Shown here piece by piece: positions 23,657 through 64,000 of a stretch of DNA of 64,000 nucleotides (positions are counted from its first letter, which is position 1; the number at the start of each line of letters is the position of its first letter). The position numbers were made by a program, and so were the translations under genes. This DNA comes from Bacteroidota bacterium (GTDB taxonomy: Bacteria > Bacteroidota > Bacteroidia > AKYH767-A > OLB10), in the NCBI GenBank assembly GCA_019136655.1, contig JAGVTU010000006.1:1-64000 (forward strand), in the 5' to 3' direction. Below the pieces are notes generated by a model, which saw only the letters and a program-made list of their open reading frames with translations, was not told the DNA's origin and did not search any database.

Positions 23657-23665
23657 TCTGCATTG

Positions 23666-23850
23666 CCTTGGCGCACCCGTGGCCTTAGAGGGCGCTGACG
23701 CAATAATTTTTTTACACATTCCTTCGCGCACCCGTGGCCCTAAAGGGCGCTTACGCGCTTCGAATATGATGGGCAAGAGGCAAGCTCTCGCTGGGTTGTT
23801 TACATCTTACACCCAGCAGTTCCGCAGTACTGCGGAATACCGGGTGTCAG
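23666..23850 (+). repeat. interspersed intergenic repeat, copies 1 (partial) and 2
   Basis: The first module (GCACCCGTGGCCTTAGAGGG) occurs at 23672 and again at about 23729 (CCTAAAGGG variant). The second is followed by CGCTTCGAATATGATG, a variable part, and the hairpin module GCAGTTCCGCAGTACTGCGG with flanking ACACCC / GGGTGT arms. The same two-module element recurs at 24111, 34273 and 40166. Confidence 0.8.
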
Positions 23851-23871
23851 GGATTTTTAAAAACAAAAGGT

Positions 23872-24084
23872 GATGAATTATGGGAAGGCAGGGAGAGGTT
23901 ATGTTGAGGCAGGAATAAATTATGATAAGGCAGGTGTTGTTGATGGTGAGGCAGGAATATGTTATGTGCCGACAGGGATTAGTGAAGGTGCGACAGGAAC
24001 CAATTATGTGACAAAAGGAATGTGTTATGGGTAGTTAGGAACGGTTAAAGGGCCGTTAGGAATGGATTATGTGACGATATGGCA
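23872..24084 (+). repeat. degenerate 21-bp tandem repeat (about 10 units) with a 53-residue heptad-repeat open frame
   Basis: Successive 21-base units share NNNTTATGNNRAGGCAGGAAT and drift steadily. Ten units can be aligned with one single-base insertion near the start. Because 21 is a multiple of three, one frame (ATG 23873 to TAG 24034) stays open for 53 residues and reads as heptads of the form N-Y-x-x-A/T-G-I, for example NYDKAGV and CYVPTGI. No ribosome site or promoter is evident; translation is uncertain. Confidence 0.7.
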
Positions 24085-24110
24085 GCGTTTTATTTTGGGA
24101 GATGTTGTAT

Positions 24111-24227
24111 TTCCTTCGTGCACCCGTGGCCTTAGAGGGCGCTTACGCGCTTCGAATACGATGAGCAACACAGCAAGATAACGTTTTACACCCTGCAGTT
24201 TCGCAGTACTGTGGAATGCAGGGTTGT
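24111..24227 (+). repeat. interspersed intergenic repeat, copy 3
   Basis: CACCCGTGGCCTTAGAGGGC at 24121 with CGCTTCGAATACGATGAGCA, then the second module with TTTCGCAGTACTGTGGAA inside CCCTGCAG / CTGCAGGG-like arms. About 117 bases. Confidence 0.8.
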
Positions 24228-24246
24228 TTCTATTAATTCTTATTAA

Positions 24247-24445
24247 TTGTTCTTTTGGCTTGAACCAATCCCGCAGTTCAGCGGGACCAAAAGTTCAAGG
24301 CTGTATAAGAATATTTTGTTTCATTGTTCTTTTGTCTTGACACAATCCCGCAGTTCAGCGGGATTGCTTAATGTAATCACTCTTAATTGTTCTTTTGTCT
24401 TGACACAAAAGAACCAAAAAGTCAAGCCTGATGAAAAATCAACTA
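24247..24445 (+). repeat. TTGTTCTTTTG repeat family, three copies with CCCGC-N6-GCGGG hairpins
   Basis: Copies start at 24247, 24324 and 24387 (TTGTTCTTTTGTCTTGACAC, the first with GGCTTGAACC). The first two carry the small palindrome CCCGCAGTTCAGCGGG. The third continues into AAAAGAACCAAAAAGTCAAG, which is self-complementary with its own start. I recognise this as a common Bacteroidota intergenic repeat. Open frames across it are not credible genes. Confidence 0.75.
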
Positions 24446-25096
24446 AAATATTGTTCATTTCATCACGCAACCCAATGTCGCTGCGCTCGGGGTTGCTTAC
24501 TTGTGCCTTACGCTTTGAAATGAACTGCTATTTCTTAACGTTGATTTTTCATAGGGCGGTTTGGGGGTTAATATTTAAAAGCGTATTCGTGTTGTTTAAG
24601 TGTTGCTATTTTTTAATTGATTTTTTATAGGATGGTTTATATGATAAAATCAGGGGTGATTTTTGAAAAAAATTGTAAATAATTGATAGTCAGATGTTTA
24701 TGATTTTGGGAGGTTTTGTAAGGTTTGGTGGATTTGTGTGCGGAATTGTGGACTGATTTTGATGGCCGGAATGGTTGGGTTGGTGGTGGCCAGGGGGTGT
24801 TTTGCGGCCTGAATGATGGTGGTTGTTTGGAGAAAAGTTTTTGCAGAAAAGGGTTAAGGATCAGAGGGGTGAAGTGATTGAAGGAAAGGTTGTGTTGTGT
24901 GGTTTTGAAAAAGTGGTTGGGCAAATTTTATTTTCAGAAAAATGAAACTTTTATTTTTTGAAGGTTGTAAAAGGATGCAGAAAAGCGGTGTAAGAAAAGT
25001 TGAAACTGAGAGTTGCAAAAACCAAGCCGCAAATTGAATAAAACGAATCGAATTGAAAAATAAATATTCTTTTAAACACTAATTAAATTATTAAAA
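24446..25096. other. gene-free stretch, partly C-poor and G+T-rich
   Basis: No convincing gene. About 24460-24560 carries another palindromic piece (CAACCCAATGTCGCTGCGCTCGGGGTTG). About 24640-24960 is markedly poor in C on the plus strand, with runs of GGTTGGTGG type. The last 100 bases are AT-rich and lead into the gene at 25097. Confidence 0.6.
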
Positions 25097-26092
25097 ATGA
25101 AAAACGCAAAATTTAACTGCGCCATGGGGCTGATGTATTTGGCCGTGCGCAAAATGTGGCAGAACTGTAAACTGAATATTACAGATATGCATAATTTTAA
25201 GAGTAAATATACGGATGCATTTTGCGATGCACGTATAGCGGAAGTGGATGCAGCAGAAGCGATGCCTACGGAAGAGGCACGTGCAGCGGCACACTCGATG
25301 TTGCGCCTGGAGTTGATGACCACAGGCAGAACATGCAGACAAGACTGGCAAAGTCTGAAGATGTATATAAAGACTGCGTTTGCTCCTGAGCAATGGCAGA
25401 TACAATGGGATGCAGCAGGGATGAACAGCTACTATGCTGCGGGCAACAACAACTGGACGAGTTTGACGGAGTTGATGTCGGAGGGCAGTGCATATATTGC
25501 AGCAAACAAAGCGGTGTTGCTTGCAGGTGATAATATGCCTGCGGGTTTTGAAGCGCAGTTTAATGCATCGAAGGCAGAACTGAATGTTAAGCTGAGCGCG
25601 TTTACGGATGCAGAGGTGAATGCAGAGTTTGGACAGGAGCAGAAGATGGATGCGAGCAATAGTGTGTATGACCAGGCGATAATGATGGGCGAAGACGGGT
25701 TTCACCTGTTTGACGGACAGGAACTGAAACAGAATATGTTTTCGTTTGCAGCAGTGTGTGAGCTGATAGATCCGAGAGGTTCGAGTACGGCCATACTTAC
25801 AGTGCTGAATGCAACGACAGGTACACCGATAATAGCAGAGGTGGAACTTGTGGGCAGCGACCGCAAGGTGACCAGTGGTGCAGATGGCCGTGTGGAAATG
25901 GGACATCTTGCACAGGGTGAAAACAGCTTTAAGGTGACGGCAGACGGATTTACAACACAGACAGTGACGCTGAACCTGAACGTGGGAGCAACATCGCGCA
26001 CAGAGGTGGAAATGGCACCGATGTTTGGTGAAACGGTTTCGGAAGTGACTCCGATACCGGGAGCAGAGCCAGTGCCTGTGCCTGTGAGCTGA
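25097..26092 (+). CDS. orphan protein with a C-terminal carboxypeptidase-regulatory-like domain
   Basis: A 331-residue protein that I do not recognise as a whole. No signal peptide. The N-terminal half (1-225) is Ala- and Met-rich and helical in look. The C-terminal part (about 232-312: ILTVLNATTGTPIIAEVELVGSDR ... GADGRVEMGHLAQGENSFKVTADGFTTQTVTLNL) has the layout of a carboxypeptidase-regulatory/PEGA-like beta sandwich. The end is Pro/Val-rich (PIPGAEPVPVPVS). It is followed by a strong terminator. It sits alone in repeat-rich DNA beside the RM operon, and its wording (GCG, GTG, GAG codons) looks different from that operon. Confidence 0.65.
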   Translation: MKNAKFNCAMGLMYLAVRKMWQNCKLNITDMHNFKSKYTDAFCDARIAEVDAAEAMPTEEARAAAHSMLRLELMTTGRTCRQDWQSLKMYIKTAFAPEQWQIQWDAAGMNSYYAAGNNNWTSLTELMSEGSAYIAANKAVLLAGDNMPAGFEAQFNASKAELNVKLSAFTDAEVNAEFGQEQKMDASNSVYDQAIMMGEDGFHLFDGQELKQNMFSFAAVCELIDPRGSSTAILTVLNATTGTPIIAEVELVGSDRKVTSGADGRVEMGHLAQGENSFKVTADGFTTQTVTLNLNVGATSRTEVEMAPMFGETVSEVTPIPGAEPVPVPVS

Positions 26093-26127
26093 TGCGATAA
26101 AGAAAAAATAAAGTCATATTAGTAATA

Positions 26128-26163
26128 CCCCCTTTGTGCGAGAGCATGAAGGGGGTTTTTTTT
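26128..26163 (+). terminator. intrinsic terminator
   Basis: CCCCCTT, a 14-base loop, AAGGGGG and eight T residues, 36 bases after the stop of the 331-residue gene. Confidence 0.85.
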
Positions 26164-26236
26164 GTGTTGTTTGGGAGGGAGAGGGAGAGTGTGTGATTGG
26201 GGTTAAGCTAAAGTATTTTGTGTTTATCAGGATTTT

Positions 26237-26256
26237 CTCCGCCATAAATGGCGGAG
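26237..26256 (+). repeat. perfect 20-bp palindromic repeat, copy 1
   Basis: CTCCGCCATAAATGGCGGAG followed by TTATTTTT. An identical palindrome with the same following bases is at 40122-40141. Lies in the promoter-side spacer of the RM operon. In plus-strand sense it could also act as a terminator (T-rich tail). Confidence 0.8.
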
Positions 26257-26378
26257 TTATTTTTTGGGGGGATTTGAGAATTAAGGATGAGATGTTTTAA
26301 TTTGTGGAGAGGACATCATAAATGAATAGGATAAAAGATGATACTTTAGCAAATCGTTGAGGAAAACACAATTATATC

Positions 26379-34216: not shown

Positions 34217-34272
34217 GAGAGTGACTCGTCCTAACAAAAGTTTGATGTATAATTATTAAGTGCAGATGCTTA

Positions 34273-34371
34273 CCTCCGCGCACCCGTGGCCTTAGAGGGC
34301 GCTGGCACGCTTCGAATACGTTGCGCGTTGATGAACAACCCGGCAGTTCCGCAGTACTGCGGATTGCCGTA
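34273..34371 (+). repeat. interspersed intergenic repeat, copy 4
   Basis: CTCCGCGCACCCGTGGCCTT begins at 34275, then CGCTTCGAATACG, and after a short variable part the hairpin module GGCAGTTCCGCAGTACTGCG. Sits just downstream of hsdR. Confidence 0.8.
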
Positions 34372-37679: not shown

Positions 37680-39377
37680 TTATTTTGCGTCTTCTGTTTT
37701 TACGTGCATTCCGCTTTTATCAATTTTGATGTTTACGTTTTTGTCATTGTCGTTGGCATCCTTTCCTTTTATGCGGATACCGTGCTGATCAATATTAATA
37801 TCCACATCATCAGAATCAACGGTATTTGATTTATTAGTTGTAAAGTCAAAGTCGGTACACATCAGTCCGGCATCGGTCATTTTCCATGTATGTCCGCCCA
37901 TATCGCCATCCCATGTGTTGGTTACATTGTCAATATCATCCAGAATATCAACCATTGATTCATCAATATAAATACTTTTTCCAACAGGAACTTTAAGAAT
38001 CAACAGTACTTTTTGATTACGAAACTTTACACCTTTTGGAATGGGGAAGTGATCGCTTAGCATCAGTGTAGAATCTTTCTGTTCGAAATTGTATTTAATA
38101 CTTTTTGCATTGTCCATTGCTTCCTTTTCAGTTCTTCCTTCAGCAGAAAAAATCTGTATCAACTCAAACTGATCGGTAGGAGCTTTTTCAATTTTAAAAT
38201 CTACGTTGTCCTGATTGAAAACAAAATCAGAGCCTGTGGTAACGCTGAAGTTTCCTCCGCGTGTACTGAAAATCCGGGATTGACTTTCCTCATCGTATTT
38301 GGGATCGTCCATAATACGGAGTGAGAGTGTTTGTGCAGATGGATTAAGAACTTCGACAGTGTTGCGAATTTTGGCATCCTTAGCAAAATCACGTGCAATA
38401 TCATACACATTAAAAAATGCTACTGCCAAACCAAGAATGAATAAAATTCCTACTGCAACATTGAGGCGATGGGTGTTGTATTTAATATTAAACATCCATT
38501 TTACAAGACGTATGATTAACCAAACAGCAGGAATTGCAAAGAGCAGAATAAATGCTACTGTTGTCCACATCTGCTGATCGCGTGATAAAAACTGATCGGA
38601 AATAAACACAGGAATGGTGAGCCCGCCTACACCGAGCATAGCCATTATTCCCATTCCTATTGAAAACAATACGATTAGTGCAATGAATGCAAAGAATGCA
38701 GTGATGATGTAAACAATTCCTTTGAGTATGATTTTGATACCGGAAAGCATCAAATCAAAAAAGTTTGAAATACCTGATGGTTCGCGCTTTACTGCAGGAG
38801 ATTCTGTTTCCTTGCGAATGGTGCTGATGTTTACAGGGTCGCCACGCATCTCCAGTTTTTGAGTGGGAGTGATAGCTTTTGGCAGAATGATGGCAAGAAC
38901 AATGTATATCAACAAGCCACTGAAGCCCATAAAGAAGATGATGATAAACAATAAGCGTAACCAAACTGCGTCAATGCCGAAGTAGTGGCCCAGGCCTGAG
39001 CACACACCTGCAATCACACGCTCATCAGGATCGCGATAAAGTCTGCGCTTGATGGTTGCTTCATTTGCAGTGGCATCACCGTTAGTTTGAGAAGTGCTGC
39101 AGGCAGCATCATCAGCTCCGGAGAAATCTTCGGGTTTGCCCATTACGGACATTACCTGATCAACATCTTCTGATGTAACCACCTGACGTGATTTGCCAAG
39201 AATCTGCAAGAGTATTTCAGCAATACGACTTTCGATGTCTTCAATAATTTCGTCACGACCATCGCTGACGCTGAAATGACAGCGTATATTCTGCAGATAA
39301 TTTTTTAATTTGTCATAGGCAAGTTCTTCAATGTGAAAGACCATGCCACCAATGTTTACTGTTACTGTCTTATTCAT
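37680..39377 (-). CDS. PspC domain-containing membrane protein
   Basis: A 565-residue protein. The soluble N-terminus (1-95: TVTVNIGGMVFHIEELAYDKLKNYL, IEDIESRIAEILL) is a Bacteroidota-specific lead. A PspC domain follows (about 110-170: KRRLYRDPDERVIAGVCSGLGHYFGID plus a membrane helix), then four to five membrane segments to about 330. The C-terminal soluble part is rich in Asp/Lys/Asn and looks like an adhesin-type (DUF2807/GIN-like) beta region. PspC proteins respond to envelope stress. Its start overlaps the stop of padR by 4 bases, so the two are co-regulated. Confidence 0.85.
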   Translation of the reverse strand: MNKTVTVNIGGMVFHIEELAYDKLKNYLQNIRCHFSVSDGRDEIIEDIESRIAEILLQILGKSRQVVTSEDVDQVMSVMGKPEDFSGADDAACSTSQTNGDATANEATIKRRLYRDPDERVIAGVCSGLGHYFGIDAVWLRLLFIIIFFMGFSGLLIYIVLAIILPKAITPTQKLEMRGDPVNISTIRKETESPAVKREPSGISNFFDLMLSGIKIILKGIVYIITAFFAFIALIVLFSIGMGIMAMLGVGGLTIPVFISDQFLSRDQQMWTTVAFILLFAIPAVWLIIRLVKWMFNIKYNTHRLNVAVGILFILGLAVAFFNVYDIARDFAKDAKIRNTVEVLNPSAQTLSLRIMDDPKYDEESQSRIFSTRGGNFSVTTGSDFVFNQDNVDFKIEKAPTDQFELIQIFSAEGRTEKEAMDNAKSIKYNFEQKDSTLMLSDHFPIPKGVKFRNQKVLLILKVPVGKSIYIDESMVDILDDIDNVTNTWDGDMGGHTWKMTDAGLMCTDFDFTTNKSNTVDSDDVDINIDQHGIRIKGKDANDNDKNVNIKIDKSGMHVKTEDAK

Positions 39378-39715
39378 TTTTCAGTGGAGTTGTGGTATGT
39401 CTGGTTAACTGCGTCAACCAATTCATCCCATGTTTTTTTTAATTCTTTTAAATGTTCCTGGCCCAATGGTGTCAGTTTATAGTATTTGCGCGGAGGACCT
39501 GCATTACTTTCCACCCAATTGTATGAAAGCAAACCTGCGTTTTTCAAACGGGTGAGCAATGGATACAAGGTACCTTCCACAACAATGAGTTTAGCTTCTT
39601 TCATTTCATCTATGATATCGCTGGGATAAACTTCTCCCTTGGAGATGATAGACAATATGCAGAACTCTAAAACTCCTTTTCGCATTTGCGACTGTGTGTT
39701 TTCGAGATTACCCAC
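39374..39715 (-). CDS. PadR family transcriptional regulator
   Basis: A 113-residue winged-helix repressor. The N-terminal region (RKGVLEFCILSIISKGEVYPSDIIDEM) is followed by the recognition part VVEGTLYPLLTRLKNAGLLSYNW and the wing GPPRKYYKLTPLGQEHL. This is the canonical PadR pattern of the short (PadR-s2-like) subfamily. It probably represses its own operon through the palindrome at 39781-39801, and a second operon at the right edge of the window through an identical site. Confidence 0.93.
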   Translation of the reverse strand: MGNLENTQSQMRKGVLEFCILSIISKGEVYPSDIIDEMKEAKLIVVEGTLYPLLTRLKNAGLLSYNWVESNAGPPRKYYKLTPLGQEHLKELKKTWDELVDAVNQTYHNSTEK

Positions 39716-39753
39716 GATGTTGTTGTTTAATTGTTTGACTTAATTGTAAATAA

Positions 39754-39815
39754 CGATGCAAAGATATATTCAAAGAATGGTACTATGCAACACATAGTAC
39801 TAAAATATTTTATAT
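39754..39815 (-). promoter_or_regulatory. padR promoter with palindromic operator (copy B)
   Basis: On the minus strand the block holds GTACTATG-N5-CATAGTAC (39781-39801) and a -7 TATCTTTG (39760-39767), about 45 bases before the padR ATG. The palindrome covers the place of the -33 element. The whole 62-base block matches 63455-63516 with one mismatch. Confidence 0.85.
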
Positions 39816-39889
39816 TATATTGATATTCAATTAAATTATTTTTGATGGGATGGTTGTTTTGGGGGAAATTTAGGATTAAACGCCTGTAT

Positions 39890-40239
39890 TACTGAAGTGC
39901 TGTGGGATGGGTTGGAGGCATTTCATGCGTACATTCGAGCACAAGATGGGTAATGGTGCACGCTGGTGTTTTTTATATTCGATTCCTACGGAGTCGGTGA
40001 AATGTTTTTGTTGTTCATGCTATCAATATGTAATCCCTACGGGATTAGAGATAATCAAAGCTGAGAAGGAGAGTTGTGATTAAGGTCAAGGCTAAAGCCC
40101 TTTTTAATTTACTGGTTTAGTCTCCGCCATAAATGGCGGAGTTATTTTTCGGGAGATATTGCATTTCCTCCGCGTACCCGTGGCCCTAAAGGGCGCTGGC
40201 GCGCTGGTGTTTATACAGCCCCAAAGTACTGCGGGATGA
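39890..40239. repeat. cluster of palindromic intergenic repeats, including copy 2 of the 20-bp palindrome and copy 5 of the interspersed repeat
   Basis: The 590-base gap between padR and ftsZ holds no gene. It contains GATTCCTACGGAGTC near 39979, AATCCCTACGGGATT near 40031, AAGGCTAAAGCCCTT near 40088, the palindrome CTCCGCCATAAATGGCGGAG at 40122-40141, and the interspersed element (TACCCGTGGCCCTAAAGGGC) from 40166 with a degraded second module ending about 40239. Confidence 0.8.
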
Positions 40240-40305: not shown

Positions 40306-41913
40306 TTAGTCGGCTTTGTCGTGCAGAAACTTGTTGTTGTTTTTCAGATCGGGACCTTGTGGTCCATCATCATTCAATGAAAGACGAGAATAATTAGTAT
40401 CATCAGATGATAACACATTCGAAAGTTTCACATTCTTGCGTTTGTATGCAGGCTCTCTCTCCATATCATTCAGCACCTGAGGACTTGAAATGTGAGGCAT
40501 CTGCTTCATTCTTTCCAGCCTCTCACGTGTACGACTGTAAACATCATCAGGTTTTACTCTCACTTCATTCTGTACATGTTGTTCTTGCGAAAAAGTGTCA
40601 GGCTTTTGTTGCAACACAGGTTGTGGTATTTCATTTACAGGTGATGATTCCAGAATATCTTCCTGCTGATCTTCTGTCAGCTCATGAGTAATAACGTTCG
40701 GAAAATCGGTGAATGTAAATTCCTGTGATAACAATTCCGGCTCAGGCTCTTTGGTGTTCTCAGGAGAAAAATAATCAACTGAAGTAATCGGAACTTCTTC
40801 GTCAATTGTTTTGAGCACAGGCTCGTCAGATGCTACAGGAGAAAGTTGATTTTCTTCTTCTCTTTCATTTGTAACATCAGGCATTGACGCATTATAAATA
40901 TCATACTTGATGACTTCAGGTTTCTTCACAGACTCCTGACGTTTTACTTCACTTGTTTTGAATCCTGTTGCAATGATGGTGACTGCAATTTTATCACCTA
41001 ATGATTCATCACTGCCAACACCCATAATAATTTCGGCAGTTTGTCCTGCTTTTTGCTGGATATACTCGGTAATATCACTCATTTCATCCATGGTAATTTC
41101 GTCATTACCGCTGGTGATGTTCAGCAAAATATAACGTGCACCTTCAATGTTATTATCATTCAGCAAAGGCGAATCAAGAGCCAGCTCAGCTGCATGTATT
41201 GCACGGTTATCCCCTGATGATATGGCAGATCCCATAATAGCCACACCGCTGTCGCGCATTACTGTTTCAACATCTGCAAAATCTACGTTGATGTGAAGTG
41301 TAACACTGATTACCTCTGCAATACTCTTTGCAGCAGTAGCAAGTACGTTGTCAGCATATCCGAATGCATTGGTGAGTTTGAGGTTGCCATGTATCTCACG
41401 CAATTTATCATTGCAGATGATGAGTAACGTATCAACATTACGTTTGAGTTCTTCAATTCCGAGGTCGGCCTGTTGTTTGCGTTTGCGTCCTTCAAATGCA
41501 AACGGAACAGTAACAATTCCAACAGTAAGAATTCCCATTTCTTTAGCAATACCTGCAATGATAGGTGCTGCACCTGTTCCGGTGCCACCACCCATACCGG
41601 CAGTGATAAATACCATTTTGGTATTGTCTTTCAGAATAGCTTTCAGTTCTTCAATATTTTCAATAGCCGATTGTTTTCCTACTTCGGGCATAGAACCGGC
41701 ACCACGTCCTTCGGTAAGGCTTGGACCTAACTGCACCTTGCGTGGAACGGGACTCATTTCGAGTGCCTGCAAATCGGTATTGCACACTACAAAATCAACT
41801 CCTTTGATTCCGAGTTTGTACATAAAGTTTACAGCATTGCTGCCGCCACCGCCTACTCCAATTACTTTTATAATGGAAGGCTGTTCGTTAGGCATAAATT
41901 CAAAGTTCATCAT
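40306..41913 (-). CDS. ftsZ: cell division protein FtsZ
   Basis: Tubulin-like GTPase that forms the Z ring. 535 residues. The GTP-binding part has GVGGGGSNAV (about 17-26), the tubulin signature GGGTGTGAAP (about 115) and the T7 loop NVDFADVETVM. After about residue 325 comes a long acidic, low-complexity linker (about 180 residues), then a conserved C-terminal peptide (EREPAYKRKNVKL). The linker is longer than in E. coli (383 residues total) but usual for Bacteroidota. Last gene of the dcw cluster, 38 bases after ftsA. Confidence 0.97.
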   Translation of the reverse strand: MMNFEFMPNEQPSIIKVIGVGGGGSNAVNFMYKLGIKGVDFVVCNTDLQALEMSPVPRKVQLGPSLTEGRGAGSMPEVGKQSAIENIEELKAILKDNTKMVFITAGMGGGTGTGAAPIIAGIAKEMGILTVGIVTVPFAFEGRKRKQQADLGIEELKRNVDTLLIICNDKLREIHGNLKLTNAFGYADNVLATAAKSIAEVISVTLHINVDFADVETVMRDSGVAIMGSAISSGDNRAIHAAELALDSPLLNDNNIEGARYILLNITSGNDEITMDEMSDITEYIQQKAGQTAEIIMGVGSDESLGDKIAVTIIATGFKTSEVKRQESVKKPEVIKYDIYNASMPDVTNEREEENQLSPVASDEPVLKTIDEEVPITSVDYFSPENTKEPEPELLSQEFTFTDFPNVITHELTEDQQEDILESSPVNEIPQPVLQQKPDTFSQEQHVQNEVRVKPDDVYSRTRERLERMKQMPHISSPQVLNDMEREPAYKRKNVKLSNVLSSDDTNYSRLSLNDDGPQGPDLKNNNKFLHDKAD

Positions 41914-63454: not shown

Positions 63455-63516
63455 TATAAAATATTTTAGTACTATGTGTTGCATAGTACCATCCTTTGAA
63501 TATATCTTTGCATCGT
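63455..63516 (+). promoter_or_regulatory. promoter with palindromic PadR operator (copy A)
   Basis: Contains GTACTATG-N5-CATAGTAC (63469-63489) and -7 TATCTTTG (63503-63510). All 62 bases match 39754-39815 (reverse strand) with one mismatch. The palindrome's middle TGTTG sits at the -33 position, so binding should block sigma. Confidence 0.85.
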
Positions 63517-63549: not shown

Positions 63550-63912
63550 ATGAAAAAGCTGCTCATCACCATCGCCCTTGGCGCATTAGTAATTCCAAAT
63601 CTTGGATTTACTCAAACTGAAAAAGAGCCTGTATTAACACCGGCCTACATTCAAAATGGAGAAGTAATACCTGTTGTTACTCTGCCTGAGGTAACCATTC
63701 GTGCTACTGAAGACAATTCAGAAATGACCGGATATACTTTACCTGAAGTAACCATCACTTCCGACCGAACTCCTGATAATGTATATCCTGCTGTGTTGTA
63801 TCATTCTGAATATATAGCTTCAGTGAACTTAAAAGAGGTGGATATAGTTGCAAAACAAAAAAGAGTTACACTTGCTTCGCTGTTTTCATTCAAATGGCTG
63901 TTCCATAAATAA
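63550..63912 (+). CDS. small exported protein with repeated LPEVTI motifs
   Basis: A 120-residue protein with a signal peptide (about 1-21, ending GFTQ). TLPEVTI occurs twice (44-50 and 63-69) and a related LKEVDIV at 94-100. These resemble the TonB-box wording LxEVVVTA of Bacteroidota receptors, though no barrel follows. ATG 63550 was chosen because the signal peptide starts there; the TTG at 63496 lies inside the operator block. It leads an operon with the ABC gene 21 bases downstream. Function unknown. Confidence 0.75.
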   Translation: MKKLLITIALGALVIPNLGFTQTEKEPVLTPAYIQNGEVIPVVTLPEVTIRATEDNSEMTGYTLPEVTITSDRTPDNVYPAVLYHSEYIASVNLKEVDIVAKQKRVTLASLFSFKWLFHK

Positions 63913-63933: not shown

Positions 63934-64000
63934 ATGCAACTTTCCATCCGCAGTTTAACAAAAACGTATCCCAACGGAGTGCGTGCATTAAACAACATCA
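63934..64000 (+). CDS. ABC transporter ATP-binding protein (N-terminal fragment)
   Basis: Only the first 22 codons are in the window: MQLSIRSLTKTYPNGVRALNNI. The pattern L-x-K-x-Y-x-x-G-x-x-A-L-N is the usual start (A-loop Tyr) of an ABC ATPase, probably of the bacitracin/lantibiotic-export type often driven by PadR. Walker A is beyond the edge. Confidence 0.75.
   Translation, partial: MQLSIRSLTKTYPNGVRALNNI

Follow-up and report, generated by a model that had tools for sequence, protein, structure and literature searches.

The closest described counterpart of the locus analysed here is the HAAS-PadR-like winged helix-turn-helix (wHTH) dyad of phage shock protein (PSP) systems without PspA (mSystems 2024, PMC11237479), in which HAAS has been proposed to pass a membrane signal to PadR. 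The part of that account available to us describes the dyad by its gene neighbourhoods, without an operator, and by a conserved GxP motif. In a stretch of 64,000 nucleotides from a Bacteroidota bacterium (contig JAGVTU010000006.1, positions 1 to 64,000; the window in what follows) the same motif occurs in the product of a pspC-like gene next to padR, and for this locus we define in addition an operator, its position within the promoter and a second target operon, which encodes a small secreted protein and ATP-binding cassette (ABC) transporter components. The best explanation of the whole, which we hold to be likely, is that PadR co-regulates both operons through an old pair of sites, one of which recently underwent gene conversion. 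A further relative is LftR, a PadR-2 regulator of Listeria (PMC6457526), a protein of ~110 amino acids that controls a transporter and binds its own promoter at a partly palindromic site; it resembles the window PadR in size and in the arrangement predicted for the latter, and differs in that the accessible part of the report mentions no PspC partner. Among solved structures the closest relative is PDB entry 5h20, a 'putative PadR-family transcriptional regulatory protein' (phmmer 1.1e-39).

The padR gene (39374..39715, minus strand, GTG start) encodes the only PadR in the genome that scores above the family cut-off (Pfam PF03551, 1.5e-18); with 113 amino acids, where PadR-2 proteins have about 100, and with its gene preceded by a conserved palindrome, it has the characteristics of the PadR-2 type. 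It overlaps by 4 bases with the pspC-like gene (37680..39377, minus strand), whose product of 565 amino acids consists of a HAAS-like N-terminus followed by PspC, LiaI-LiaF-TM and Toastrack domains (PF04024, PF22571 and PF22744, all above cut-off) and carries the GxP motif (MGKPE in the window protein) that is invariant in 11 sequences. A stand-alone PadR-like wHTH gene thus adjoins a gene for a pspC-like membrane protein as in the HAAS-PadR dyad, the HAAS match itself being below cut-off, and the protein logic of the window fits the predicted HAAS-PadR/PspC dyad. As a separate observation, the padR reading frame of the sister species Bacteroidetes bacterium OLB10 (L041:4821-5158) breaks near codon 95 and continues in another frame, owing to a frameshift or a sequencing error.

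Upstream of padR, a block of 62 bases (39753..39814, minus strand) matches a block upstream of the secreted-protein gene (63455..63516, plus strand) at 61 of 62 positions (BLASTN within the window, E 3.7e-26); the preliminary description had reported this match correctly but began the first block one base too late, at 39754. Both copies contain, free of mismatches, the palindrome GTACTATG-N5-CATAGTAC that we predict to be the PadR operator (copy 1, GTACTATG-TGTTG-CATAGTAC, 39780..39800, minus strand; copy 2, 63469..63489, plus strand) and, 13 bases downstream of it, the -7 box TATCTTTG (TAnnTTTG; 39759..39766, minus strand, and 63503..63510, plus strand). The TTG in the spacer (39788-39790 in the first copy, a candidate for the -33 element, and 63479-63481 in the second) lies 21 bases upstream of TATCTTTG, and the palindrome therefore spans the -33 region, as had been claimed. 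Two matches to the palindrome with at most 3 mismatches occur in the window, where 0.2 would be expected by chance. The window's own genome (G000) is a draft of 2.96 Mb in 27 contigs, with the block inside a contig of 72.7 kb; a search of all of it for GTACTATG-N5-CATAGTAC, which the preliminary description had suggested, returned exactly two sites, with no third palindrome at up to 2 mismatches and, using a query of 91 bp, no third copy of the block. We also considered a larger regulon and rejected it, since a degenerate consensus with 2 mismatches matched at 8 places in the genome, fewer than the 15 matched by the reversed control pattern, which leaves no regulon sites beyond the two. The two copies are inverted with respect to each other, ~23.7 kb apart, and flank a stretch that holds ftsZ.

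To place the palindrome in a broader context, we used orthologues of the window PadR (63-99% identical) and their surroundings at 80 loci, all in other species of Bacteroidota. It is present upstream of padR with at most 4 mismatches in 79 of the 80 loci and with at most 2 in 65, while control DNA of equal length downstream, available for 77 loci, gave a best match with 5-7 mismatches in 76. Most of the sequence information over the 79 loci resides in the palindrome with its 21 positions and, to a smaller extent, in the -7 box; there is little in the 13 bases between the two elements or in those ahead of the palindrome. The motif TAnnTTTG is the -7 box of flavobacterial sigma-A promoters (PMC9723704), and of the loci with at most 3 mismatches in the palindrome, 39 have both this box and a spacer TTG that could be recognised; in 34 of these the two lie 21 bases apart, a fixed spacing that would suit a repressor placed over the -33 element. 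Presence of the site also follows presence of the regulator. Of 41 genomes from the order, 36 have a window-type PadR, and 35 of these contain a site within 1 mismatch of the strict or the degenerate consensus, as against one of the 5 without, by a single weak match. With the degenerate pattern and 1 mismatch, matches to the reversed control arise in some genomes as well, so that single weak matches of this kind are not meaningful; the strict pattern alone is found in 26/36 genomes with PadR and 0/5 without (Fisher P 0.004). These comparisons support the palindrome as a PadR operator conserved in Bacteroidota.

The second copy precedes the gene for a small secreted protein of 120 amino acids (63550..63912, plus strand), followed by an ABC ATPase gene (292 amino acids, plus strand, 63934..64000 within the window and running to contig position 64812) and, beyond the window at contig positions 64821-68399, by a gene whose product of 1192 amino acids joins an ABC-2 permease to an M1 peptidase. 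The three genes are separated by gaps of 21 and 8 bases, and no terminator-like site was found by pattern scan on the coding strand between them. We compared four species of the genus, the window's own and G001 (Bacteroidetes bacterium OLB10), G002 (UBA6661) and G003 (SZAS-1): both operators are present in all of them, the second always ahead of the secreted-protein gene and then the ABC genes, an arrangement kept throughout. In a further member of the family (G011) a single operator precedes one operon, in which the gene for a secreted protein 39% identical to that of the window comes first, then padR and pspC; in G006 the position ahead of padR is taken by a longer protein with similar motifs. 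A stand-alone relative follows the operator in other genera (G007, G009, G012, G015, G016 and G017). Judged by these comparisons, the second site appears to be a genuine co-target of PadR, and the simplest reading would be one ancestral regulon whose genes were joined or split by lineage. Comparative genomics thus supports the earlier claim of a shared PadR operator upstream of both operons, which predicts that PadR controls its own and the ABC operon; the envelope-stress role claimed along with it is plausible because of the PspC, LiaI-LiaF-TM, Toastrack and HAAS-like domains (PMC11237479). Separately, one genome (G010, L036:5276-6554) carries operator and secreted-protein gene as a tandem duplicate, 866 bases apart.

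We propose that the block is a promoter of the Bacteroidota kind in which a PadR operator encloses the -33 region. The sole PadR of the genome, of the PadR-2 type and part of a predicted HAAS-PadR dyad, would most likely bind GTACTATG-N5-CATAGTAC as a dimer and, when bound, would block RNA polymerase from the -33 element, repressing the padR-pspC and the secreted-protein/ABC operons jointly. The PspC/Toastrack protein would sense a membrane signal and relay it via its HAAS-like N-terminus to PadR, upon which repression would be relieved. With this the predicted HAAS-PadR stress dyad of Bacteroidota gains a second target as well as a concrete operator set in a defined promoter geometry, and its regulons therefore become readable from sequence across the phylum.

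The near-identity of the two copies calls for a separate explanation. Conversion between repeats is known in bacteria, for instance from rRNA operons, where distant copies are homogenised within one genome (PMC8022953); the tract in the window differs in comprising ~60 promoter bases and in lying between single-copy regulatory sites. The right arm of the padR-side palindrome reads CATGGTAC in G001, G002 and G003, followed by TATCTTTTAAATATATC in G001 and G003, while the padR-side copy of the window's genome reads CATAGTACCATTCTTTGAATATATC instead and is identical at 62/62 positions to the secreted-protein-side copy of G001. The padR-side copies of the window's genome and of G001 differ at 7 positions of the block, at all of which the former has the base of the secreted-protein side of G001, and the flanks just outside the block show padR-side bases again. 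Two of these differences are uninformative, since a change in G001 alone or a recurrent change could explain them. The other five are phylogenetically informative: one is the A/G base of the palindrome, and four are bases derived in the secreted-protein-side copy of the common ancestor of the window's genome and G001, judged so because neither copy in G003 has them. Parsimony requires 19 steps with the copies grouped as orthologues and 14-15 with the padR-side copy of the window's genome grouped with the other side. A paralogue-like tract, orthologous flanks and derived bases in common with the paralogue are the pattern of ectopic conversion, and most of the converted bases fall between palindrome and -7 box, where information over the 79 loci is low.

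The near-identity is therefore best explained by a recent short-tract ectopic gene conversion, in which 51-62 bases of the secreted-protein-side promoter (63455..63516, the probable donor type by comparison with the padR-side and sister copies) would have replaced the padR-side promoter (39753..39814 being the longest possible tract) and restored a perfect palindrome. A single later change of T to C in the secreted-protein-side copy of the window's genome accounts for 61/62 rather than 62/62 matches. The pair of sites itself is old and, going by its distribution in the genus, predates the divergence of the genus. The padR-side operator is one mismatch off the palindrome in G001, G002, G003, G012 and G016, and the secreted-protein-side operator is perfect in G001, G003, G012 and G016, not in G002; conversion gave the window's genome a perfect padR-side operator, from which we infer that autorepression may be tighter in this species. 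The locus would also show, in a natural genome, how gene conversion can act on a regulatory site of ~60 bp, which matters because near-identical promoters are usually taken as a sign of selection.

Strong constraint or a recent duplication had been offered in the preliminary description as the source of the 61/62 identity, and neither is borne out. The conservation of palindrome and -7 box over the 79 loci would agree with constraint alone, that is, with a 62-bp block that is functional as a whole and conserved independently at both sites. Constraint is, however, limited to these two elements, with little information in the remaining bases, and the within-genome copies differ at 7 (G001) and 8 (G003) of the 62 positions, so that near-identity is peculiar to the window's genome and constraint alone is a very unlikely cause. 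A duplication or transposition of the promoter block that recently made one of the sites would likewise produce 61/62 identity, yet both sites are found in all four species of the genus, the orthologous ones in G001, G002 and G003 occupying the same places beside the same neighbours, and the block is not a repeat element, since the genome holds only two copies; we regard this origin as scarcely credible. An inversion of 24 kb through both copies was considered as well and rejected, because the MHAID reading frame, which adjoins the second site on its inner side, keeps its place and orientation relative to that site in the window's genome, G001 and G003. For the palindrome itself, an RNA hairpin or terminator in place of a protein-binding site is a most improbable reading: the palindrome can form a stem, and one copy was flagged by a pattern scan as a terminator-like site of the antisense strand, but its position is upstream of the -7 box, and complementary pairs are in no general excess over 48 distinct operators (fifth pair 31 observed, 31.6 expected; sixth pair 15 observed, 22.6 expected). 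As the arms lack covariation, it is the sequence and not the pairing that is kept.

PadR co-regulation combined with recent conversion must also be weighed against several points that count against it. The conversion tract is short, with five informative bases in one genome, and the mosaic might be an assembly or binning error, given that the genome is a draft of 27 contigs and the sister genomes are metagenome-assembled. We consider such an error improbable, as the block lies inside the 72.7-kb contig, the sequence to its left and right is correctly of the padR-side type, and a simple swap would not give this mosaic. On the side of regulation, where the argument is one of comparative genomics, the Pfam HAAS match is below cut-off both in the window protein (0.015) and in a relative (1.3e-5), and the predicted N-terminus of the pspC-like protein gave no significant fold match in the PDB. 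The ABC genes follow the secreted-protein gene in the window's genus only, which makes their membership in the regulon a genus-level inference. PadR might accordingly control padR-pspC and the secreted protein, with the ABC genes transcribed mainly from elsewhere, as the absence of these genes behind the operator-linked secreted-protein gene outside the genus would allow; the short same-strand gaps, the gene order kept in four species and the lack of a terminator-like site in the coding-strand scan argue for co-transcription and render this alternative rather unlikely.

The secreted protein, which has no match in Pfam or NCBIfam, points to a possible function of the regulon. We derived an 8-residue TonB-box matrix from 18 TonB boxes of the genome's own TonB-dependent receptors, chosen by eye from the N-termini, with which the motifs LPEVTIRA, LPEVTITS and LKEVDIVA of the secreted protein score 13.5, 17.1 and 14.3 bits (training median 16.2). 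These 3 hits compare with 0.27 in shuffled sequences (P 0.0005), a comparison in which shuffling leaves the effect of internal repetition in; relatives of the protein bear one to four or more such motifs. In other Bacteroidota (L116, L132, L157, L141 and others) a small secreted protein is encoded first in the padR-pspC operon, between operator and padR. Two of six such slot proteins tested match the TonB_C profile, both below cut-off (0.0024 and 0.059), and a profile search of the PDB ranked TonB first (E 0.02-0.06); neither profile nor predicted fold gave a significant match. With a model of middling confidence (predicted local distance difference test score, pLDDT, 70), the Foldseek matches at ranks 1-14 are all TonB/TolA domains (E 0.03-0.3), HasB and FusB being counted as TonB homologues. 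In still other Bacteroidota a DUF2807 protein occupies the slot.

The occurrence of TonB-box and TonB-C-terminal-like products in one slot suggests, with the latter seen partly through a structural model, that the regulon may modulate TonB. The TonB-box-like repeats of the secreted protein and the TonB-C-terminal-like slot proteins are new, if unproven, and literature searches on PadR with toast-rack, HAAS and operator, and on TonB-box decoys, returned nothing to the point. As a tentative proposal, to which we give a small but real chance, the PadR-PspC regulon would throttle TonB, by a polyvalent TonB-box decoy in the window's family and by a free TonB-C-terminal-like domain in other Bacteroidota, both of which would uncouple TonB from outer-membrane receptors under inner-membrane stress and save proton-motive force; in that case the conversion, by homogenising the two operators, would have shifted the balance between autorepression and control of the target. 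The TonB-like secreted products suggest in this way a testable link from inner-membrane stress to outer-membrane import.

Directly upstream of padR and on the same strand lies ftsZ (40306-41913), and the long run of minus-strand genes behind it, flanked by both operators, may be a division/cell-wall cluster, going by gene order. The region upstream of padR (39401-40200) additionally shows interspersed matches of 33-93 bases, at 81-94% identity, to 23659-26268 and 34267-34306, which may form a small family of repeats and have no relation to the operator.
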